Positions 4,867 to 57,800 of a stretch of DNA of 64,000 nucleotides are shown here, piece after piece. This DNA comes from Panorpa germanica. Lineage: Eukaryota; Arthropoda; Insecta; Mecoptera; Panorpidae. The stretch lies in the NCBI GenBank assembly GCA_963678705.1, contig OY783220.1, positions 11,677,001 through 11,741,000 on the forward strand, written 5' to 3'. The translations under genes were made by a program, and so were the position numbers. The notes beneath the pieces are model-generated. The model was not told the DNA's origin, did no database searches, and saw only the letters and a list, made by a program, of their open reading frames with translations. Positions within the stretch are counted from its first letter, which is position 1, and every line of letters begins with the position of its first letter.

Positions 4867-5505
4867 AATGGGCTTGTGTCCTCATTTTTTAGTGGTCGAT
4901 TTTTCAATTGTTGATTGAAATTGATGTTAATAAATGTGTATTGGCGTGTCTATTTTATTAAATATCTAAATATTGACGGAGATATAGCAATTAAAAGTTT
5001 GAATTGTAGTTTTAGCGCTAGAAATGGTTGGCCATATTTGTATGACATGGAATGCATTTTAACGTCAGTTATTTGTTGAGTAGGTCAGTGTTGTGGTAAT
5101 GTTTTGTAGCTGTTGGTACTCAAACAATCCAGTCAAGTCAAAGAATAATAAGTTTTTACTTTATTTAACCCTGTTAAGGCAGACATAATATTGAAATTTT
5201 ATTGTTCCTTGAAATAACTGTAAATAATATTTGATATTTTGATATATAAATACATAGAGCAGAGATTTATGATCTGTAAGGTTGGTAACCTTACACAAGG
5301 TTTGTGATGTCACATGCATTTGGAGTTTGTACAACGTTGAATCCCTTTAATAATTAAAGAGACAAAATGACTTTTTTAATTGTTAATATCTCCTAACATA
5401 TATGGAGTTATTAAAAAATAATTGAACATTTGAGGTTCTAGTAACCCACTTTATCAATATATAGTACAGTTTTATAGAAATTAAGACATAGGACACAAGC
5501 CCATT
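4867..5505 (+). mobile_element. Family A inverted-repeat element, copy 1 (intact)
   Basis: This non-autonomous element begins AATGGGCTTGTGTCCT and ends with the exact reverse complement, AGGACACAAGCCCATT. It is about 639 bp, encodes no transposase, and its interior is shared with six other copies in this window. No clear target-site duplication is visible, so I cannot assign a superfamily. The interior includes a short inverted repeat, AAGGTTGGTAACCTT. Confidence 0.9.
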
Positions 5506-13115: not shown

Positions 13116-13342
13116 AAAATAGATTGGTTTATGAAATATGTATATTAGAAGCTAATTGCATGCTTAGGCAATGGTATTAAACTGTACCTGATTTGCTAAT
13201 TTGTAATATCATGTATTAATCTCAAATTTGACAGACAATTGAAGTTGTACAATAATTTGACAATGACATGTAGTAATTGTATTGTAGTGAATCGAACTCG
13301 AAATCGAGAATTTAATCTCAAACATACAGCTGTCTGACATCT

Positions 13343-13931
13343 AATGGGCTTGTGTCCTATGTCTTAATTTCTATAAAAGTGTACTATATTTGATAAAGTT
13401 GGTTACTAGAACCTCAAATGTTCAATTATTTGTTAATAACTCCTTGTATGTTAGGAGATATTAACAATTAAAAAAGTCATTTTTCTCTTTAATTATTAAA
13501 GGGATTCAACGTTGTACATATTCCAAATGCATGTGACATCACAATCACTGCCAACCTTACAGCTCACAATTCCCTGCTATATGTATTTATATATCAAATA
13601 TTATTTACAGCTATTTCAAGGAACAAAATTTCAATATCATGTCTGCCTTAGCAGGGTTAAATAAAATAAAAACTTATTATTCTTTGACTTGACTTGATTA
13701 TTTGACTACCAACAGCTACAAAACATTACAGCACTGACCTACTCAACAAATAGCTGACGTATAAAATGCATTTCACGTCATACAAATACAAATACGCGCT
13801 AAAACTACAGTTCAAATTTTTAATTACTATATCTCCGTCAATATTTAGATATTTAATAAAATAGACACGCCAATACACATTTATTAACATCAATTTCAAT
13901 CAACAATTGAAAAATCTACCATTAAAAAATG
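13343..13931 (-). mobile_element. Family A element, copy 2 (right end lost)
   Basis: Reversed relative to copy 1. The left end TAATGGGCTTGTGTCCTATG is intact, but the element stops after the ACCATTAAAAAATG sequence and lacks the terminal AGGACACAAGCCCATT. Its interior follows copy 1 with scattered changes. Confidence 0.85.
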
Positions 13932-14578: not shown

Positions 14579-23786
<9,208 letters not shown>

Positions 23787-30994: not shown

Positions 30995-31330
30995 TCAGCT
31001 GCCTATAAGTGGTACACAGTATGCTGGAAAATAAGAGCAACAATTGTTGATTGTAACCCGGTTGCACATATTATATGGTCTTGGGTAGTTACAATTTCCC
31101 GGAGTTGTGGATGTCGCACAGCAACAGTCTTCCTCAATAACATCGGTTGGTACATACATGTAACACACATTGTGCATTTCAGGTGTGTACCGAGTCCTCC
31201 TTATGGAGCCTGAGCGACGAATTTCTATAATGCCATTATACTGTATTACTGGTCGAAGATTTATTTCCTTGAATGGGTCACAGGAATTGTTACTATTAAC
31301 ATTTGGAGGACAACTATTAAAGCAACTCAT
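30995..31330 (-). CDS. Small Cys-rich protein, cluster gene 1
   Basis: The gene encodes 111 residues in one coding exon. The ATG lies directly after an acceptor (TTTTATTTTAG), and a good donor (GTGAGTAAC) lies near 31407, so a short non-coding leader exon is likely. The protein has many cysteines (CCCATS, NNCCSYFPAYC) and the module LRPVIQYNGIIEIRRSGSIRR at about 26-46. That module aligns with the HNGI(R/K)E motif of the other three genes in this cluster. There is no signal peptide or obvious membrane segment. I do not recognise the family. Cys/Pro-rich small proteins are often structural, for example in sperm tails, but that is only an inference. Confidence 0.7.
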   Translation of the reverse strand: MSCFNSCPPNVNSNNSCDPFKEINLRPVIQYNGIIEIRRSGSIRRTRYTPEMHNVCYMYVPTDVIEEDCCCATSTTPGNCNYPRPYNMCNRVTINNCCSYFPAYCVPLIGS

Positions 31331-31412
31331 CTAAAATAAAAACATTTAGTCAAGTTGCAAACCATTATTCATAAATAAATATATTTTTTTGTTGGTAGTT
31401 ACTCACCGATAT
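31329..31412 (-). other. Likely 5' UTR intron of cluster gene 1
   Basis: On the minus strand, AATATCG followed by GTGAGTAAC starts the intron. A pyrimidine-rich tract ending TTTTAG meets the ATG at 31330. The upstream leader has in-frame stops and no ATG, so it would be non-coding. Confidence 0.5.
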
Positions 31413-31885
31413 TCTTTCTTTTGAATTATTTATTTAGATATGTGGTAATACTTTTGTTCAAATTATCTTTTTCGTTTACGATTTTTTTATACTTTTTTAT
31501 TTTGATTATTTTTATTGGTTTCTTAATTTTTTCTTAATAATGTGTTACTTGAAATGATGTTTATTACTATTGTTTATTTATAAATTATTGTTTTGTTTTA
31601 TATACGATATATTATTAATCTATCTTCAGTGGTACCAACAAAATAACGGGCTAAAACGAACAGCATTTCGTTTTATCGAGTTGTAGTTCATAGATAATTC
31701 CGGCCCACTACAACTTGGCGTGATCATTTTACATTTTCAAAATACCGATTATATTTTTTGTTTATTTATAAAAGAAAAATATACAAGAAATATTAAACAA
31801 TCGTTATATTAAATTAACTTGTACAACAAAAACTTCCGATTTTTTTCTTGGGTAGATAGGATATCTTCTCCATTTTTTCTCGATG

Positions 31886-33288
31886 TTACCAATTTTGAAA
31901 GCATGGTGATGACGGAATAGGCTGCACATTTTCTTGTTGTTTTCTCTGGCTGCAGCAAGGACATGGCGGCTTTGGTGGGGAGCAGCTACAATGCTGTTGA
32001 GGCATGTTTGGATTTGGATATAAACATGGCGGCGTTTCCGGTGGTGGACACAAATTTGGTGTACTGGTGTTATATACATAAATAGGATTTGGTTTGAAGT
32101 AACGCTTATTCACTACTTCAGCTAATTTCTTATCGTAGTCTGGACTGTTACATACGTAATATTCTACGCCACTGGTGTCTGTAGGTCCGTACGTTTTTTG
32201 AACCCATCCAGTCGGTCGCATTTCCTTTATTCCATTATGGACAAATGTGGGGTTATGTTTTGGATGCCATATTGGATCTTTATCTATTAAGGTTGGTACG
32301 ACTTTCCGTTTTTTGTGCTTGAGGTGGTAGCATACCTAGATTTGAAAAATATAAATATTAATAATGTGACAAACTGATTTTTTACAGGTCAATTATTTAA
32401 CTTTTAATGGGCTTGTGTCCTTTGTCTTAATTTCTATAAAAGTGTACTATATATTGATAAAGTGGGTTACTACAACCTCAAATGTTTTTCAATTTTTTTA
32501 ATAACTCCTTATATGTTAAGAGATATTAACCATTAAAAAAGTCATTTTGTCTTTAATTATTCATCGTCTCCAAATGCATGTGACATCACAACCGCTGTCA
32601 ACCTTACAGCTCATAAATATCTGCTATATGTATTTATATATCAAAATATCCAATATTATTTACAGTTATTTCAAGGAACAATAAAATTCCAATATTATGT
32701 CTGCCGTAACAGGGTTAAATAAAATAATTTGACTTGACTTGATTATTTGACTACAAACAGCTACAAAACATTACCACAGCACTGACCTACTCAACAAATA
32801 ACTGACGTATAAAATGCATTTCACGTCATACAAATATGGCCGACCATTTTTAGCGCTTAAACTACAATTCAAACTTTTAATTGCTATATCTTCGTCAATA
32901 TTTAGATATTTAATAAAATAGACACGCCAATACACATTTATTAACATGAATTTCAACCAACAATTGAAAAATCGACCACTAAAAAATGAGGAGACAAGCC
33001 CATTGGTTATATTTCTATCTGGAAGAGACTCTTTTATATTGTATCACAAAGGTGACAAATAATTCGGTTTGTTCTTACCGCTTTCGGACCGTTTTCACAA
33101 GCTGGGTTTAATTTTGTTATCAGGGCCGGTATTAAAGGATCTTCATTCGACGCCGCATCAAAATTTTCCATATATACTGGACAAGCATCTATTGAATCGT
33201 TCATTAATCGGTCCAGTCGACATAGTACAGAATTAGGGTCTAAATTTGGACTAACTGTAGTAGGATTTAACTTTTGTGTGTTACTCAT
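31886..33288 (-). CDS. Cys/Pro-rich protein, cluster gene 2
   Basis: Two exons, 33079-33288 (70 codons) and 31886-32335, joined in phase 0 at GTAAGA and ATCTAG to give 219 residues. The N-terminal part is acidic to neutral with NLDPNSVLCRLDRLMNDS and resembles nothing I know. The second exon starts VCYHLKHKKRK, then carries the shared module NPTFVHNGIKEMRPTGWVQ. It finishes with a Cys/Pro-rich tail including CPPPETPPC, HCSCSPPKPPCPCC and SSPCFQNW. About 600 of the intron's 743 bp are a family A transposon. A 111-residue version starting at an internal ATG in exon 2 would lose the module. Function is unknown. Confidence 0.72.
32406..33004 (-). mobile_element. Family A element, copy 4 (inside an intron)
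   Basis: Reversed relative to copy 1, with both ends present; the right end GAGACAAGCCCATT has one change. It fills most of the intron of cluster gene 2, leaving about 70 bp on each side. The region around the internal palindrome has a deletion. Confidence 0.9.
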
Positions 33289-33560
33289 TACTTTTCAAAT
33301 ATTTAATAACACCTCTTCAAATTTTACTACTTTTTTTATATTATTTTACTTTTTTTCAATAATAATTCTTTGCAAATTATTATTTACGTCAGTTTAATTT
33401 TGTGTTCTGATTCATTTGTTTTTCTTTTAATAATTAGATAGGCTATAAACAGGTGCCTTCTCCTTTTACCCCGTCCAATACTCCGTAATTTTTTTTCATC
33501 GATAAACTCTCAATATTATTGGCAACACTTGTTTGAATAACATGGCTCGATACTGAAAAA

Positions 33561-33840
33561 TATAAAAATTGGAATTTAACTAGAAAATATAGCAATATTC
33601 ATTTTCAAAACTTATTTTTGCGGTTCCAACTCATTAAAAGTCAGGAGAAGAAAGCTTAAAATGTAGATACGTTATTCATCTAACTAATTGCAGCTTTAGA
33701 TTTTGATTCGTGTTTATAGTTACTTACATAAAACGATTTAAACATAAAGAACATGGTTTTTTTGATAATATTTAACCTGCTGTATAGTATTCCCATCTAT
33801 ATTTCGCGAGAAAAAATGGCCAAGTATCGTTTCACCTTAA
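33561..33840. mobile_element. Family C element, copy 2 (left part lost)
   Basis: Matches the right two-thirds of the element at 12125-12546, ending GTTTCACC followed by TTAA. The left terminal repeat is absent, so it cannot be mobilised. It ends about 190 bp beyond the stop of cluster gene 3. Confidence 0.85.
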
Positions 33841-34026
33841 GAAACAGCCAAACCAAAATTGTTCGGATCTATGCGACATGAAGTAGATCCTTTTGCAGTC
33901 GCTCTGATATCGAGATGTTTAAAGTGGTGTATTAATAAGGTTTTAAACAGAAATTTACTCTTATGATAAAGTGTGCTAATACGACTAGAAGCTCTTAGAG
34001 TAAATAATGAAGGATTCCTTAGTTTC

Positions 34027-34596
34027 TTACAATGTTTCTGAAGAACTCCGAGACGGGGCCAACTCACAAAATTGAAGACTAACATTCGAATATTCATCTT
34101 TCCTCAAATCCAACGGCCTTGCGGTGCGCCTAGTCTCTCGAATTCCATTATGGGTAATCAATGGTTTATTTTCCCCCCGATAAAGTCGTTCTACAGCCAA
34201 TACCCTCTGTTGCAATTCGTACCCCGGAGGACAAGTTGGCAAACCTGGACCAGAACATTGTGGATAACAAGATGGCTGACAACAGGGTTGACAACCTTGA
34301 GGAAAACATGGAGAACACTGTTGAAAAGGTGTAGGAGAGCATTGAGGATATGGAGGAGGGCAGCACTGGCTCGAAAAACTTGGAGGACAGCACTGAGGAG
34401 ACATAGCTGGAGGCCAAGCTGGCGCGAATTGTTGCTGAGGTCCTGGGAAACCGTAACCAGAATTTGTTGAGTAATCTGGTGGGCAAATATTGGAACCTGC
34501 TGGTGGAGCTCGAAATCCTTTTGGAGGAGGTGGTGGCGGTAAATAAACTTTCAAAATTTGCGGTTGCTCTTGACAATTTCCATATGAATTGTACAT
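34027..34596 (-). CDS. Cys/Pro/Gln-rich protein, cluster gene 3
   Basis: A single-exon frame of 189 residues. The N-terminal part has ILKVYLPPPPPPKGFRAPPA. Residues about 55-120 are dense in Cys-Pro pairs (SPQCCPPSFSSQCCPPPYPQ, CQPCCQPSCYPQC). The shared module NKPLITHNGIRETRRTARPL follows at about 143-162, then LRKDEYSNVSLQFCEL. The Cys-Pro-rich part resembles the Cys-Gly-Pro repeats of insect Mst sperm-tail proteins and mammalian ODF1 in composition only. There is no signal peptide. A long antisense frame across the gene reflects its composition and is not separate. Function is unknown. Confidence 0.75.
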   Translation of the reverse strand: MYNSYGNCQEQPQILKVYLPPPPPPKGFRAPPAGSNICPPDYSTNSGYGFPGPQQQFAPAWPPAMSPQCCPPSFSSQCCPPPYPQCSPTPFQQCSPCFPQGCQPCCQPSCYPQCSGPGLPTCPPGYELQQRVLAVERLYRGENKPLITHNGIRETRRTARPLDLRKDEYSNVSLQFCELAPSRSSSETL

Positions 34597-34871
34597 TATA
34601 ATGAACTATTGTAAAATTGGAATGTTTAAAATGAAATAAATTTTGTGCTATATGATTAAAACATATTGGTTGTTAAATTTTGTAAATGGTATTTTATTTT
34701 TTATCTAAAACAAGTGAATATTTGGTTATTGACAATTTCATTTAAACAGTGGAGAACTCGATCAACCTTTTTTTTTAATATACAATGAATTATTTCAAGA
34801 GTCTTCCTTTTTCTATTCAATCCAGATGTCTCCCGACAGAATTCATTTCGCAGATGGATGATTATTTCTTA

Positions 34872-35129
34872 CTAATTACCAGCAGAACCATCTACAAGAC
34901 AGTAAGTCGTGTCAGATAATTCCCTTATTCGCATGTCCAGAGGTCTTGCTGTGAATCTGACTTCCCGCGTGGATGTGCTGGTAATTGTTGGCATCATGTC
35001 ATATTTTCCAACGCACCACTTTCCTCTGGAAGTGCAGGACCATGGTTTAGGGTAGCAGGAGCATTGTTGAGAGGGTTGTGCATATTGCCGGCAACGACAA
35101 CCATTACAAATTTGACAACCTGGATACAT
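34872..35129 (-). CDS. Small Cys-rich protein, cluster gene 4
   Basis: The gene encodes 85 residues starting at the ATG at 35129; two codons of in-frame sequence upstream lack an ATG. The N-terminus is Cys-rich (MYPGCQICNGCRCRQYAQPS, CSCYPKPWSC). The shared module MMPTITSTSTREVRFTARPL is followed by DMRIRELSDTTYCLVDG. Within the cluster its closest match is gene 3: both have R-x-TARPLD-x-R. It is the shortest member and the most distal from PEX19. It may be complete or may have an unrecognised upstream exon. Function is unknown. Confidence 0.65.
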   Translation of the reverse strand: MYPGCQICNGCRCRQYAQPSQQCSCYPKPWSCTSRGKWCVGKYDMMPTITSTSTREVRFTARPLDMRIRELSDTTYCLVDGSAGN

Positions 35130-35282
35130 TTTCACAAGTATTTGAAAAAAAAACGCAGAATTTTGTATATTGCAGAACTACTTAAGAATTTTGATTTTAT
35201 TTCATTTAAAAAACAATTGAATTTGATGTTTTATTAGAAACATCACAGTAAACTTATATGTGGACAAGTTATTTATAGTTTT

Positions 35283-35946
35283 AATGGGCGTGTGTCCTAT
35301 GTCTTAATTTCTATAAAACTGTAGTAAATGAAGTTGGTTACTATAAGCTCAAATGTTCAATTATTTTTAATAACTCCTTATATTTCAGGAAATAATAACA
35401 ATTAAAAAAGTCATTTTTTCTCTTTAATTATTAAGGGATTCAACGTTGGACAACATTCCAACTGCATGTGATTACTATCTCTTTTACACAACGGAGCGTA
35501 AAAGAGATAGCATATTCAAGATGGAACTCTGACAAGTTTACAGGTTACCAACATTACAGCTCATAAATCTCTGCTATATGTATTTATATATCAAAATATC
35601 AGATATTATTTACAGCTATTTCAAGGAACAATAAAATTTCAATATTATGTCTGCCGTAACAGGGTTAAATAAAATAAAAACTTGTTATTCTTTTACTTGA
35701 CTTGATAATTTGACTACCAACATCTACAAAACATTACCACAGCACTGACGTTAAAATGTATCTCACGTCATACAAATATGGCCGACCATTTCTAGCGCTA
35801 AAACTACAATTCAAATTTTTAATTGATATATCTCCGTCAATATTTAGATATTTAATAAAATAGACACGCCAATACACATTTATTAACATCAATTTCAATC
35901 AACAATTGAAAAATCGACCACTAAATAATGAGGACACAAGCCCATT
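35283..35946 (-). mobile_element. Family A element, copy 5 with an extra hairpin
   Basis: Reversed relative to copy 1. The ends are AATGGGCGTGTGTCCT and GGACACAAGCCCATT. Near 35469-35504 it contains CTATCTCTTTTAC and, ten bases later, its inverted partner GTAAAAGAGATAG, a segment the other six copies lack. This makes it the longest copy, at about 664 bp. Confidence 0.9.
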
Positions 35947-36455: not shown

Positions 36456-37079
36456 AATGAGCTTGTGTACTCATTTTTTAGTCGTCGATTGAAATTGATG
36501 TTAATAAATGTGTATTGGCGTATCTATTTTATTAAATATCTAAATGTTAACGGAGATATAGCAATTAAAAGTTTGAATTGTAGTTTTAGCGCTAGATATG
36601 GTCGGCCATATTTGTATGACGTGAAATGCATTTTAACGTCAGTTATTTGTTGAGTAGGTCAGTGCTGTGGTAATGTTTTGTAGCTGTTGGTATTCAAATA
36701 ATCAAGTCAAGTCAAAGAATAATAAGTTTTAATTTTATTTAACCCTGTTACGGCAGATATAATATTGAAATTTGATTGTTCTTTGAAATAGCTGTGAATA
36801 ATATTTAATATTTTGATATATAAATACATATAGCTGAGATTTATGATCTGTAAGGTTGGTAACCTTACACAAGGATTGTGATGTCACATGCATTTGGAAT
36901 GTGTACAACGTTGAATGCCTTTAATAATTAAAGAGACAAATTGACTTTTTTAATTGTTAATATCTCTTTACATATAAGGAGCTATTAAAAAATAATCGGA
37001 CATTTGAGGTTCTAGTAACCCACTTTATCAATATATAGTACACTTTTATAGAAATTAAGACATAGGACACAAGCCCATT
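36456..37079 (+). mobile_element. Family A element, copy 6
   Basis: Same orientation as copy 1. The left terminal repeat is altered (AATGAGCTTGTGTACT) and lacks about 15 bp just inside. The right end AGGACACAAGCCCATT is perfect. The interior includes the AAGGTTGGTAACCTT palindrome. Confidence 0.9.
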
Positions 37080-38717: not shown

Positions 38718-39412
38718 TTTCAACTTTCTTTTTATTTATTTATATTAAAGTACAACATATTAAGTTTATTGTGTAAAAATTTGAAGTCAATTGGAGTAAA
38801 ACTGTCGGAGATATAGAGTTTCTAGTTCTCACCTCTCTGGTCTGCTTTCGTGTTACTTTGAAACTTTTAAATGCGGTTTCTCACTCATAGCTTTTTCAGA
38901 GTCGGTGCCATCTCTAGCTCAAAATCTACTGGACCGATTCTTTTGAAATTTTGTACACTCTTTCTTTAAATAAATGCCGAGGTAACGCTGTATAGTTTTT
39001 TTTTTTTAATTTTAACGTATTTTAAAATAACAAAGTTTCTGATTTTTTGCATGAAAAAATCGGTATTTTGACTTTTAAGTGCTGTAAAAAATTGAAAAAT
39101 AAATAAAAAAAGAAAAACTCGTCAGCGTTACCTGCAGAAACTTATCAACTAATGAAATCATTTTGGTTTTTCGATTTCAGAAAATTCAGTGATGAGTTAT
39201 GAGTGACACCGCAATGTTACTTTTTTTTGTGACGTCTACGGAGATTCGCTGTCAATGCCTCATTTCTTGATATTTATTTATGAAAATTTCACAAAGTATA
39301 CTTCTAATGTCATTTTATCATGTAGTAATTATAAAAATAATTACATATTAAATATGTCGTCAAAAAACATTACAGAAAATATGTTTCTTTTATATCGTTT
39401 TGACCTTACCCC
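38718..39412. mobile_element. Family B element, copy 2 (left end lost)
   Basis: Begins within the TTTCAACTTT segment, so it lacks the G-rich left terminus. It ends GTTTTGACCTTACCCC with no TTAA beside it. The interior is more complete than copy 1, including CATAGCTTTTTCAGAGTCGG. Confidence 0.85.
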
Positions 39413-39589
39413 ACAAAAATTAATTCAAAATTTTCCGAAAATTTTCCGTAATCGTTGGTCAATTTCAAACTCCTCGATTTCTTTGCAATATTGACTCTAT
39501 GCTGATGACTTATAGTGGTAACCGCGAATCGCAATCGCAAACCGCGACCCGCGTATCCTCAACAATATTTTCTCTCACGTCGTGTGTCA

Positions 39590-45314: not shown

Positions 45315-46260
45315 ATTCTTTCTCATTACTTCCGCCATCTTTCATTCTCTCCGTTTCCTCTTACCCCTTCCTTTTTGCTTGTAACTCCGTCTCTTATTTC
45401 TTGCCCTCCTTGAATGCGCTCGACAAACCCTCTATTATCTTTTCCTTATTCTTCCTAACGTTTTAGATGATTGTCTTAACCGATTTGTGTGTTTTAACCT
45501 CTCAGTGTTCTGTGTCTAATGTTGTCCAAGCGCGTGTCCAAGAGTCGCTCAAATGCGTAGTCCCTCAGACACGTGCTAGAGCGTGCCCATCGTTACGTCC
45601 TGTTTCACAGACAAGAGTTTCACAGGTGGACTTCACTAGTACTTAAATCCTGCGGTGTAACACTTCTATTTAACAAAAGCCTTCAATTAATAACAAAACC
45701 ACAAATATTACTTTATTATTATTATTTCTATTATAATCATACGATTTTATTACTCAAGTTTTTTATATTTATATATAAGAAGAATGTATTTTTATAATAA
45801 TAAATAAATTTATATAACGTTTAATTCAATCAACAATTGTAATATAAAAACAATAAATAAAAAATGTTGTAATGTAATTGAACACTCATACCTATTACAT
45901 GTTTCAATTCATGAGCAGAATAATAAAATGCAATATCAGCAATAATATTGTATTATTTAATTTACTATAAAGCAAAACATTATATGTATACAAATAAATA
46001 TTTATTTGTATAAAAGCATGAAGTTGCTAAACTTGATTGAGTAATTTGTTATATACATGTATTACATATAGCGGATGTATGGTTTGCATATTAATAAATA
46101 TATAAACAAATGTGTCACTGATATACTTGCTATGATACTTACAATTTGTGTTTGTTGCATATATTTTTCAATATTTTTAAACAATATGTAATAGTAGTTG
46201 CATTCTTACGCCTGCAAAGTTTTTTCACTGACAATTCAATATTATGTTACTTTTTAGATA

Positions 46261-49200
46261 ATGTGTGACCTGCCTCAGAGTCAGATATCGTCATGGTACG
46301 CAGGACGATCCATTCTTATAACAGGAGGAACAGGATTTATGGGAAAAGTCCTTGTCGAAAAGTTGTTAAGATCTTGTTCAGGAGTTCGTACTATCTATTT
46401 GCTATTAAGACCTAAGCGGGGATGCAAACCAGCCCAGAGACTTCAAGAAATGATTAATGTTACTGTATGTAATACAGCATAACCTTAAAATACAACCATA
46501 AATATATACTAATAACGTTTTAAACTTAATCCTGATAGTTATTCGATTGGTTACGTGTTAATCATCCAACAAGTTTAACAAAACTCATTGCAATCACTGG
46601 TGATATTACTGAACCTAACCTTGGGTTAAGTCCTGAAGATGAGCTACTTCTAATGGAGACTGTTTCAGTAGTCTTTCATTCAGCTGCAACTGTTAAATTT
46701 GATGAGAAGCTTAAACTAAGCGTTGAGATGAATGTAATTGGCACTAAAAGGTTGGTGCAACTGTGTCAGAAGATGAAACACTTGGATGTAAGTGTCAAAC
46801 AGAAATAATTGTGAAGTAGATAAGTCTTTAATACTAATACTTAAATTTTCCAGAGTTTAGTTCATGTCAGTACTGCTTATTGTAACTGCGATAAGCCGAT
46901 TGTTACAGAGCAAGTGTATCCGGCTCCAGCTGATCCTGATGATATCCAACAGTGCGTTTCCGTTTTAAGCGATGATATTCTTGATGATGTCACTAAAAAG
47001 TATGCATTTATTTTATAGATTAATGATGGTATTGATGCATTGTAGATAATTGTTGATGTTCCTTTTCAGAATTCTTGGAAATCGTCCCAACACATATACA
47101 TTCACAAAAGCAATGGCGGAAAGTGTTTTAATTGACATGGCAGGCAACCTACCAGTCGCTATCGTTCGCCCAAGCATTGGTTAGTGGCTTAATGATTATA
47201 TCCTCCTATATTATAATGTTCCAGGTGTATCTAACTTGTTTATATGTTTGGTACTGAATTTTGTATGGTAGCTCGAAAACGGCTACGTCAATGTTTTTGA
47301 AAATTTCCTATTTCGTAGAGAAAAAAGTTCTAAGACTTTTGGCGTCCTCGAATTTTCTCTTGAATTTCCTGGAAACCGGTAATTTTCGAAAAACTAAAAA
47401 ATTTGATGTTAAATAGATTATTTAAGAAGTTGTTGATTTTCAGTAACTGCGGCTTGGAAAGAGCCGCTTCCTGGATGGGTTGATAACCTTAATGGTCCCA
47501 CAGGATTATTTGCAGGAGCTGGCAAAGGTACAGTTGAATTCCTTACCATACATTTCGATAAGCGATGACCTTTTTAGGAATCTATTTCTTCTTCCACAGG
47601 TATCTTACGCACAATTCTCTGCCACAGAGATCTGATAGCGGATTTAATTCCAGTAGACGTCTGCATCAATTTGCTTGTTGCGGTTGCATGGCACACTGCG
47701 ACATCTAGGTAAAGAAAAATTGAAACATTTAGGGCCTTGAAACCATCTCTCTGACGTCATTTGTTTTTTAATATAGTCAAACAAAAGCAAAATTAAATCA
47801 TAACCTAAAAATGTTCTTTTCAGGCCTAATAATATCATTGTCTACAACTGCACTTCCGGTACAGTAAATCCCATCCGATGGGGTCGAGTAGAATCTTTAG
47901 GGCATCGTTACATCCTAGAAAATCCTTTTAAGGAGGTCATTTGGTATCCTGGTGGCAGTTTCAAGCGATCTGTTCTTTTGAATAATACTTGCATTTATTT
48001 ATTCCATTTGGCGCCTGCTTATCTTTTGGATGCTGTTGCTAAAGCTTATGGGAAGAAACCGATGTCAGTTAAGTCACAAATTATTGTTTTCAGCCTCTTA
48101 AATATATTTTCTATATTATAACCTAAAAATATGAATAATTGATGTTGTGTAATTGGTTGATATCTTAGCTAAAAATAAAATAGTTTCTTTGTTAAGGCGG
48201 GGTAAGGTTTCAACTTATTTTTTTTATTTATTTGTATTATTGTACAACATATTAAGTTTATTGTGTAAAAATTTGAAGTCAATTGGAGTAAAACTTCACC
48301 TCTCTGGTCTGGTTTCGTATTACTTTGAAACTTTTAAATGCGGTTTCTTACACATAGCTTTTTTAGAGTCGGTGCCCTCTCTACCTCAAAATCTACTGGA
48401 CTGATTCTTTTGAAATTTTGCACACTCTTTCTTTACATAAATGCCGAGGTAACACTGTCGAGCTTTCTTTTATTTTTTTATTTTAACGTATTTTAAAATA
48501 ACAAAGTTTCTGATTTTTCTCATGAAAAATCGGTTTTTTGACTTTTAAGTGCTGTAAAAAATTGAAAAATCAATAAAAAAAGAAAAACTCGAGCGTTATC
48601 TGTAGAAACTTATCAACTAATGACAACATTTTGATTTTTCGTTTTCAGAAAATTCAGTGATGAGTTATAAGTGGCACCGCAATGTTACTTTTCTTTGTGA
48701 CGTCTGCGGAGATTCGCTGTCAATGCCTCATTTCTTGATATTTATTTATGAAAATTTCACAAAGTATTCTTCAAATGTCATTTTATCATGTAGTAATTAT
48801 AGAAATAACTATATATTAACTGTGTCGTCAAAAAACAATATCGAAAATATGCTTCGTTTTTATCGTTTTAATTTTGCGGGTGAGGGGGGGGGGGTGTTAT
48901 AACCATTAATATTTCTTCAAAACTAAAGAAAGAGCAGGATAATTAGCTCCGTCATAATTAATTTATAACACTGAACAAAATAATAAATTATTTAAAATTA
49001 TTTTTAAGGATGGTTGGAGTCCAAGCTAAACTTCGTAAAGCGGTTGACGCATTGGAGTTCTTTACGATCAATGAATGGCGCTTCCCGAATGACAATGTGA
49101 TGAGATTATTAGCACAATTAGATGCCACAGATCGTGAACTATTTGACTTTGATGTATCACAAATGAATTGGGAACAATATATCGAGAACACCGTTTTGGG

Positions 49201-49502
49201 AACTAGGAAATATATAATGAAGGAAGATAACAAAAGCTTGCCAGATGCGAGGCGGAATTTAATGAAGTATTACATATATGTTTATCCCACGTAATAATTT
49301 AATTATGACGTTTTAAGCTTGATGTTTTATGATATGTTTTAGGATGTATTGGATAGACAGAATCACAAGAACATTGTTTATCACCGCTGTTTGGAAAATC
49401 GTTTTGTCACAAAGTACGCATGCGCAATGGATATCAAATATTTTTTGGAATATAGCGCGGGAAATTCAAAATAAAGCTATTAGTATTATAATGAAAAAAT
49501 AA
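46261..49502 (+). CDS. Fatty acyl-CoA reductase 1 (alcohol-forming)
   Basis: Reduces long-chain fatty acyl-CoA to fatty alcohol with NADPH, for waxes, hydrocarbons, ether lipids or moth pheromone. Nine exons: 46261-46464, 46539-46787, 46854-46999, 47070-47179, 47444-47527, 47600-47708, 47824-48063, 49009-49266, 49343-49502, giving 519 residues. The N-terminus has the Rossmann motif [20 protein letters not shown] and LLLRPKRG. Later come [27 protein letters not shown] and HVSTAYCNC, then the catalytic Tyr-x-x-x-Lys in [16 protein letters not shown] and [13 protein letters not shown]. The C-terminal FAR_C domain holds INWEQY-like [14 protein letters not shown] and ends with [20 protein letters not shown], a hydrophobic segment seen in membrane-associated FARs. 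All key residues are present. It is convergent with FAR-2. Substrate length and tissue cannot be read from sequence. Confidence 0.95.
48192..48898. mobile_element. Family B element, copy 3, in a FAR-1 intron
   Basis: Starts TTAAGGCGGGGTAAGG and follows copy 2 closely. The right end is degraded into GCGGGTGAGGGGGGGGGG, with no TTAA. It fills most of FAR-1 intron 7 (48064-49008) and leaves the splice sites untouched. Confidence 0.85.
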
Positions 49503-54820: not shown

Positions 54821-57800
54821 TCAAACAAAAGGAACCATTCTTGCAATTCTAACTAAAAGTTCAGTTAGAGAATACCAAATATTTCTAAATTTGTTTGATT
54901 TGGCTATTAAAAATCTCCAAGTCATCAGTACTATTAAAATTTTTGATAATTGATGTACCCAATATAATCTGAAAGAAAATAATTGTTTTTAAATAAATGG
55001 AAACTTCCAATAAGTGATCTAGCTGCTTATAAAGATAGGGTGCATTTCTTACCTGCTCATTTGTTGTCTTGCCTTTGGAAGAGAGCTGAGTTTTTCTTTA
55101 AACATAAATTGTCTTACACCAAGTATATAACTTTCAATGTAGCTGTCCCAGTTGATATCGTTAACATCAAAAGGAAATACTTTCTTGTCTGATGGACTTA
55201 ATATTGCGTTCAGTCGCTTTACATTGTCGTCCCTAAATTGCCATTCTTGCGTTGTAAAATATTCCAAACAATGGACAGCTTTTCCAAGTTTATCCTGGAC
55301 TCGAACCATTCTAAAAATAAAATAACATCAGTATGGAAGATGAACGGGCTTGTGTCCTATGTCTTATTTTCTATAAAAGTGTACTATATATTGATAAAGT
55401 GGGTTACTAGATCCTCATATGTTCATTTATTTTTTAATAACTCCTTATATATTAGGATATATTAACAATTAAAAAAGTCATTTTGTTTAATTATTAAAGG
55501 GATTCAACGTTGTACACATTCCAAGTGCATGTGACATCACAATCCTTGTGTAAGGTTACCAACCTTACAGATCATAAATCTCTGCTATCTGTATTTATAT
55601 ATCAAAATATCAAATATTATTTACAGCTATTTCAAGGAACAATAAAATTTAAATATTATGTCTGCCTTAGCAGGGTTAAATAAAATAAAAACATATTATT
55701 CTTTGACTTGACTTGATTATTTGACTACCAACAGCTACGGAACATTACCACAGCACTGACCTACTCAACAAATAACTGACGTTAAAATGCATTTCACGTC
55801 AAACAACTATGGCCGACCATTTCTAGCGCTAAAACTACAATTCGAATTTTTAATTGCTATATCTCCGTCAACATTTAGATATTAAATAAAATAGACACGC
55901 CAATACACATTTATTAACATCAATTTCAATCAACAATTGAAAAATCGACCACTAAAAAATGAGGATACAAACCCATTGGTTTGGAGACTTAAATCTACAA
56001 CTTACATTGGTCTCTTTCCCATAATTTTTGATATTCCATCTAAAACGTAAGCAGGGAGCCAGTGAACAGCCAATGACACTGCAGCATTTGTGTAATAGTT
56101 TTTTCTTAATGTTCCAGTGGGATACCATACAGCTCCTTCTTTAAGGAAAAGAATCTAGTTAACAAAATGTAGGAGGGAATATTAAAGTGAAGACTTGACA
56201 TTGCAAATAGCTCACCGAATGGGTGTTTTATCATGTATTCTATTGAAGTCTCTACAAATTTTTTCCACGTTACTGGTTTCTGTTGTCCAGTACAACAATT
56301 ATAAACCGTTATCCCACGCCCACCATCTGAACCATCTTTTCGTTGTGAGGCTGTCCGCCAGGCAGCTACAACCATTAAGTTAATAACAGTATCTACAGGC
56401 ACTAAATCAGCTACTTTGTTTTCATGACAAATAATCGTGCGATAAAATCCTTTTCCAACAGCGGAAATAATACCAGTGGGTCCATTCCAATTATCCACCC
56501 ACCCTGAGAGCGGCTCGTGATGAGATGATAACACTGTAATAAATATAAATTAAAGTTTAAATGAATATTAATTACCTTTTAGTTAAGTTACAAACCAAAA
56601 TAATACTCACCAATAGATGGCCGTACTATTGCTACAGGTAAATTACCAGCTTCTTTTTGTAACATATGTTCTGTTAATGCTTTTGTGAATGTATAAGTAT
56701 TTGGACGTTTTCCTATTAAACTTGGTGTCATTACATCAATTAGATCTTCCGTAAGCCATTCAACTAGATTCATTATATGATCTGGGTCATAAGGTGGGGC
56801 GTATATAACTTCATTGACCTCGTACCGGTCACAATTGCAATAAGCTGTAGACACGTGGATTAGAGCCTGAAGAAATTCATTTAAATTTACTTTCTATATT
56901 TCTAATAATTGTTTTTTTTATTTGTTTTATTTATTTGGATGTTTACCTCTAGCGACAACATTCTATGGCAAAGTTGTACTAATCTTTTCGTACCCAGCAT
57001 GTTTATGGTAACACTTAAACGAAGTTTCTCGTCGAATTTGACAGTTGCCGCCGAATGGAATACTATAGATATGTTTCGACATAGTAGCGCTTGATCTGAA
57101 GGGCTTATGCCTAATTCCGGCTCTGTTATGTCACCAACAATTGGAACAATTTTATTTAAATCCGTTGGGCGCTCTTGACGTAACTTGTCGAACAACTGGA
57201 GCAATAATAATCCATTTAGTAAAACAGTAAACATAACATGACATTTTGAGGTTAGATATTGACAATGTTAAAGTGTTAAAGTAATAGACTTTGTAGTTGT
57301 GTGATTTTAACAGTGTTTTAAATGAAGAGACCAGCAGCTGGGTCGTTCTCTAGGTGAGTCTCCCGACCTACGTGCAACAACAATCCATTTAGTAAAACAG
57401 TAAACATAACATGAAACTTTGAGGTTAGATATTGACAATGTTAAAGTGTTAAAGTAATAGACTTTGTAGTTGTGTGATTTTAACAGTGTTTTAAATGAAG
57501 AGACCAGCAGCTGGGTCGTTCTCTAGGTGTGTCTCCCGACCTACGTGCTGTCAAATTCGTATCCAGTTTACACCACTGAAACCGGATTGTAAATAGTACG
57601 ACGCTTCTTCAGACCAGATTGTGTTTATACTTTGAGGTAAGGTGAGTAAACGCATGACCACACCATTAAATAACAACTAGTAGTTCTAATTTTATTTGTT
57701 TTAAATATTAAAAACACAATGCATGAGACAATACCTTTTAAGAAGGTTGAACAGACATGACAGAACGTCAACAATGTTGTTTTTAGACATGGGCAAACTC

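Follow-up and report, generated by a model that had tools for sequence, protein, structure and literature searches.

Four adjacent Cys/Pro-rich genes of Panorpa germanica look like old duplicates that keep one short module

Four small minus-strand genes, rich in cysteine (Cys) and proline (Pro), lie side by side in the genome of Panorpa germanica, and the question that they raise is whether they form one family and, if so, what kind of protein it encodes. They lie within positions 11677001-11741000 of contig OY783220.1 (C17), the genome totalling 464 Mb over 249 contigs; this whole stretch of 64,000 nucleotides, with a G+C content of 0.299, is referred to as the window. The cluster spans window positions 35129-30995 and contains four coding units, g4, g3, g2 and g1. 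From their sequences, these look like old duplicates that have kept one short segment, the remainder having greatly changed. The sequence-only reading had placed four genes on this strand and quoted a peptide from each; location and peptides are confirmed, and all of the frames are open where it put them. The coding units and the shared segment (the module) are as follows:

34872..35129, minus strand: g4, 85 amino acids (aa), open ATG-to-stop frame; best BLASTP partner g3
34890..34991, minus strand: g4 module (PTITSTSTREVRFTARPLDMR...), outer limit approximate
34027..34596, minus strand: g3, 189 aa, open ATG-to-stop frame
34069..34164, minus strand: g3 module (PLITHNGIRETRRTARPLDLRKDEYSNVS...), outer limit approximate
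33079..33288, minus strand: g2, proposed exon 1, 70 aa, starting with ATG and in phase with exon 2
31886..32335, minus strand: g2, proposed exon 2, 149 aa counted stop to stop, with an acceptor-like AG directly upstream
32141..32251, minus strand: g2 module (PTFVHNGIKEMRPTG...), outer limit approximate
30995..31330, minus strand: g1, 111 aa, open ATG-to-stop frame
31133..31252, minus strand: g1 module (PVIQYNGIIEIRRSG...), outer limit approximate

Relatedness was assessed by all-against-all BLASTP of the 275 window frames of at least 50 aa, with the low-complexity filter and composition adjustment on. g3 and g4 match each other in both directions (E 6e-6 and 3.6e-5), g2 and g3 at E 0.043 and 0.10, and g1 and g3 at E 0.15 over the module; g1 and g2 match in one direction (E 0.016), g2 being unlisted at E<=10 when g1 is the query. 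With g2, g3 or g4 as the query, the top partner among the 275 frames is a cluster gene. When one module of each pair was shuffled 2000 times, the real score was reached once for g1-g2 (1/2000) and never for g1-g3, g2-g3 or g3-g4 (0/2000 each); because these segments were hand-picked, the unpicked BLASTP comparison weighs more. Leave-one-out profiles recover g3 at 7e-10 and g2 marginally, at 0.046. Full-length pairwise scores, which mostly align the Cys/Pro parts, are not relied on (shuffles out of 500 reaching the score: g1-g2 25, g1-g3 1, g1-g4 108, g2-g3 97, g2-g4 10, g3-g4 0). Mutual similarity beyond composition was found as a chain, g1-g2-g3-g4, strong for g3-g4 only. No additional member was found in the window with a four-module profile (next frame E 0.05, 10.3 bits), and a protein search of the genome itself with g3 returned g3 alone at E<=10, from one first-look candidate.

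The codons of the module carry a second line of evidence. In a 13-codon core shared by g3 and g4 (RETRRTARPLDLR / REVRFTARPLDMR), the two agree at 10 residues and encode 9 of them by different codons, so that selection would act on the protein; differences at codon positions 1, 2 and 3 number 5, 2 and 9, with an NG86 nonsynonymous divergence (dN) of 0.20 and a synonymous divergence (dS) that is saturated and not computable. Over 31 codons of the same pair the differences are 11, 14 and 21 (dN 0.55). A lean to the third position is also seen in g2-g3 (6, 5, 10) and g1-g2 (6, 6, 12; dN 0.54, dS 3.5). These comparisons point to protein-level selection in the g3/g4 core; they use short stretches picked for similarity and indicate selection without measuring its size.

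Composition sets the cluster apart within the window: by Cys+Pro content of the densest 40 residues, its genes rank 1-4 of the 275 frames (22, 21, 13 and 12; next frame 10). Cysteines number 12, 13, 16 and 9 in g1, g2, g3 and g4, with some C-x-C and CC pairs. A signal-like N terminus was not found in any of the four proteins by a Kyte-Doolittle hydropathy proxy, as distinct from a signal-peptide program: the top 10-residue means in the first 45 aa are 1.00, 0.67, 0.47 and 0.22 for g1 to g4, and the lack of a hydrophobic start argues for an intracellular place.

The BLASTP chain, four of the six module shuffles, the Cys+Pro ranks and the codon pattern together support the earlier proposal that the genes are tandem duplicates which have diverged around a single conserved module. 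Its further claim, that all four genes carry a region near one motif, needs correction: the complete motif as written occurs only in g3, the NGI half occurs in g1 and g2 without TARPLD, and the TARPLD half occurs in g4 without NGI. Across the four chosen module segments, the only invariant residues are P, E and R. The order of parts also differs. In g1 and g2 the module precedes most of the Cys/Pro-rich arm: in g1 it is followed by a Cys-rich C-terminal part, and in g2 it sits near the start of exon 2, with the Cys/Pro-rich part C-terminal. In g3 and g4 the module follows the arm and lies towards the C-terminal end, after a Pro- and Cys/Pro-rich N-terminal part in g3 and a Cys-rich one in g4 (8 of 9 cysteines within the first 39 aa). 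Domain order tracks the sequence pairs g1/g2 and g3/g4.

The exon boundaries of the cluster genes are predicted from splice-like signals and reading phase. In g2 the module lies 5' of the first in-frame ATG of exon 2, so an upstream exon is required; two exons, 33288-33079 and 32335-31886, are proposed, separated by a GT-AG intron (donor GCG/GTAAGA, acceptor CTAG/GTATGC before 32335, the slash marking the junction). The spliced product of 219 aa is stop-free and in phase. The proposed intron contains a transposable-element copy of approximately 600 bp. In g1 an acceptor-like TTTTAG abuts the ATG and a donor-like GTGAGT lies at 31406, which suggests a 5'-leader intron; in-frame stops in the leader exon make 31330 the probable position of the start codon.

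31331..31406, minus strand: possible g1 5'-leader intron, GTGAGT ... TTTTAG, ending directly at the ATG
32406..33008, no strand assigned: transposable-element copy of approximately 600 bp within the proposed g2 intron

A donor-like GTAAGAAA overlaps or adjoins the stop codons of g4 (34872, minus strand) and g3 (34030, minus strand), which makes the C-terminal ends of both uncertain. A further frame, 34103-33837, overlaps the end of g3. As a length control, ATG frames were counted in first-order random sequence (20 trials of 64 kb). The mean number per 64 kb is 2.0 at a minimum length of 85 aa and 0.25 at 111 aa, and no frame of 149 aa or longer came up in any trial. Length alone supports only g3, the 149 aa of g2 being a stop-to-stop figure; g4 is unremarkable in length.

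What such a family might do can be put as a single proposal, to which we give a probability of roughly 0.4. The four protein-coding genes would have arisen from one ancestor as an old tandem array, each encoding an intracellular structural protein in which a short module, with E-x-R at its core, is joined to a Cys/Pro-rich arm that changes fast. Selection would preserve the module, for g3 and g4 at the least, and the module may dock on one common intracellular partner; the arm would be flexible material whose cysteines might cross-link, by disulphide or zinc, inside a stable structure. Of the possible places the sperm tail would be the likeliest, a structure in which insects employ small Cys-rich proteins from gene clusters, Mst(3)CGP among them. 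That P-x-I-x-HNGI-x-E-x-R-x-TARPLD-x-R is an unnamed docking module, recurring with swapped domain order while the arms diverge and the partner stays fixed, is put forward tentatively, as possible rather than probable.

Three kinds of sperm protein offer a comparison. Mst(3)CGP proteins are small and intracellular, and ODF1-type sperm proteins have a Cys-rich repeat tail. The present proteins resemble the ODF1 type in having a Cys/Pro-rich part beside a non-repetitive part; unlike it, they have no CNP and no Pfam match above cut-off. The Drosophila Mst(3)CGP genes (Mst84Da-d, Mst87F) form a Cys-rich gene cluster, as here; according to the portion of PMC10645079 consulted, Mst84D and Mst87F are clustered genes encoding repetitive Cys-Gly-Pro, with transcription in primary spermatocytes, and the axoneme is disturbed when they are lost. 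In contrast, CGP is absent from all four proteins here (0 in 4/4), so they are not members of that family, and the module is not named for Mst(3)CGP in that portion of the paper. The consulted portion of PMC5712127 describes many proteins in lepidopteran sperm without homology outside the order; the present genes are similar in that no relative was found in the sources searched. Two precedents put the sperm tail first among the candidate places, as far as these portions of PMC10645079 and PMC5712127 go: the role of clustered Cys-rich genes in the Drosophila sperm tail, and the many lepidopteran sperm proteins that lack outside homologues. By this analogy the cluster proteins perhaps have a sperm-tail role.

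Several results weigh against the proposal or fail to bear it out. With g1 as the BLASTP query, an unrelated frame (E 0.63) stands above the sole cluster match, g3 (E 0.69), which falls in the Cys part. Two of the six module pairs fail the shuffle test, g1-g4 (332/2000) and g2-g4 (196/2000) being indistinguishable from chance. Leave-one-out profiles are weak for g1 (0.4) and for g4 (0.88, with an unrelated frame at 0.59 ranking higher), and g1-g3 has no third-position excess (8, 5, 7; dN 0.47, dS 1.3). An AlphaFold2 model of g1, built on an alignment with g2 (exon 2 only), g3 and g4, has a mean predicted local distance difference test score (pLDDT) of 32 and is uninformative; since domain order is reversed, the input alignment leaves the g1/g2 modules unmatched to the g3/g4 modules, which may have worsened the prediction. 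The 200 bp upstream of each gene were also scanned for the TCE testis element of Mst87F (core TCAAAATTT, as given in the consulted part of PMC3439415): the best matches for g1 to g4 have 2, 2, 1 and 1 mismatches, and approximately 19% (minus strand) and 23% (plus strand) of background 200-bp stretches have one mismatch or none, so that TCE-like sites stand out no more here than in the background.

If the family is real, its proteins may belong elsewhere. The alternative that survives best, although unlikely, is that they are intracellular cross-linked structural proteins of another tissue, such as epidermal or scale cells, in the style of keratin-associated proteins. Clustered, fast-evolving Cys-rich genes are known from the insect male germ line (in part from the portion of PMC10645079 consulted, otherwise as general background), which speaks for the testis instead. 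The composition and the lack of a signal-like start would suit any cross-linked intracellular material.

Secreted Cys-rich proteins, of cuticle, eggshell, seminal fluid or similar, are a distinctly unlikely reading. Small clustered Cys-rich genes are common among secreted proteins, but no hydrophobic N-terminal stretch was found in g1-g4 at the hydropathy means given above; upstream coding sequence is opposed in g1 by the in-frame stops of its leader exon, and further upstream exons may exist for g2-g4. It is improbable that the proteins are metallothionein-like, cytosolic and metal-binding or redox-active: their cysteine counts, with the C-x-C and CC pairs, would fit, but Cys spacing varies among the four and the segment that they have in common is the Cys-poor module. 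Least probable of all is that these are unrelated frames in AT-rich DNA made similar by composition and segment choice, as the weak links (BLASTP E 0.04-0.15; g1-g4 and g2-g4 not significant) and the length of g4 (approximately 2 ATG frames this long or longer are expected per 64 kb at random) would allow, given the g3-g4 match at E 6e-6 despite the filter and composition adjustment, the third-position excess in g3-g4, g2-g3 and g1-g2, and the grouping of four genes with Cys+Pro ranks 1-4 on one strand.

The cluster had been called undescribed. Pfam-A at E<=1 gave no families for g1, g3 and g4, and none above the curated cut-off for any of the four; MgsA_C for g2 (E 0.29, 11.4 bits) is below its cut-off of 27. 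Nine PDB sequence matches to g1 (best E 0.14, CSL3) and one to the module profile (E 0.38, ribosomal protein S26) were taken as chance, and the four remaining PDB sequence searches gave no matches. In IMG/VR, 2 stretches fit the pattern with g3 and 0 were confirmed; among GTDB contigs, 18 fit with g4 and 0 were confirmed. The lack of a viral or prokaryotic relative is as expected for an animal gene. Open-access text searched by motif letters gave hits on other subjects at most, and no account of this family was noticed among the papers found by topic. A relative was not found in Pfam-A, PDB, viral or prokaryotic contigs or open-access text, none of which covers insect proteomes, and "undescribed" is to that extent unproven.

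The repeat represented in the g2 intron has seven copies in the window, that copy included, at approximately 83-92% identity; one of the six others is in two pieces, and there is also a 35-base fragment. The other copies, from the window comparison, are:

35279-35946, 36473-37079, 4867-5505, 13342-13931, 19002-19609 and 55343-55981, strand not given: copies of the approximately 600-bp repeat

Genome-wide, at least 39 long matches were found besides the g2 copy, one of them in the window, among the 40 of 8828 candidates that were scored. By eye, the repeat ends resemble inverted repeats (AATGGGCTTGT...). The non-coding stretch between g3 and g2, 33560-33841, has one other match, at C17:10359949-10360212 (88%), with a copy of the repeat close by. 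Elsewhere, a tandem repeat at 1215-2735 with open frames (KKTIILLKMMKRFTF...) has a unit spacing of 174 bp or multiples and protein-level likeness of at least 85% in the listed pairs over long frames. Related frames at 15413-15703, 39207-39494 and 48624-48902 (76-87% identical) are probably another repeat family.

The window also contains choline/ethanolamine kinase exons at 20.6-22.1 kb and phosphoglycerate kinase at 27.1 kb, both on the plus strand. A minus-strand gene at approximately 30.4-28.9 kb ends in QCSLM, a farnesylation-type ending; from its start and this ending we take it to be PEX19, and Pfam found 0 families in its joined N-terminal exons. Two fatty-acyl-CoA-reductase-like genes, 46258-49294 (plus strand) and 58484-55049 (minus strand), face one another, with Pfam NAD_binding_4 and Sterile domains and 50-62% identity across three matching exon pairs.

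As it stands, the cluster is a plausible, modest gene family for which no name was found. If expressed in sperm, it would be a small, self-contained example of a segment under constraint coupled to Cys/Pro arms that are free to change, the two neighbouring pairs having the parts in opposite order. If true, this would help to tell binding apart from material properties in reproductive proteins that evolve fast.

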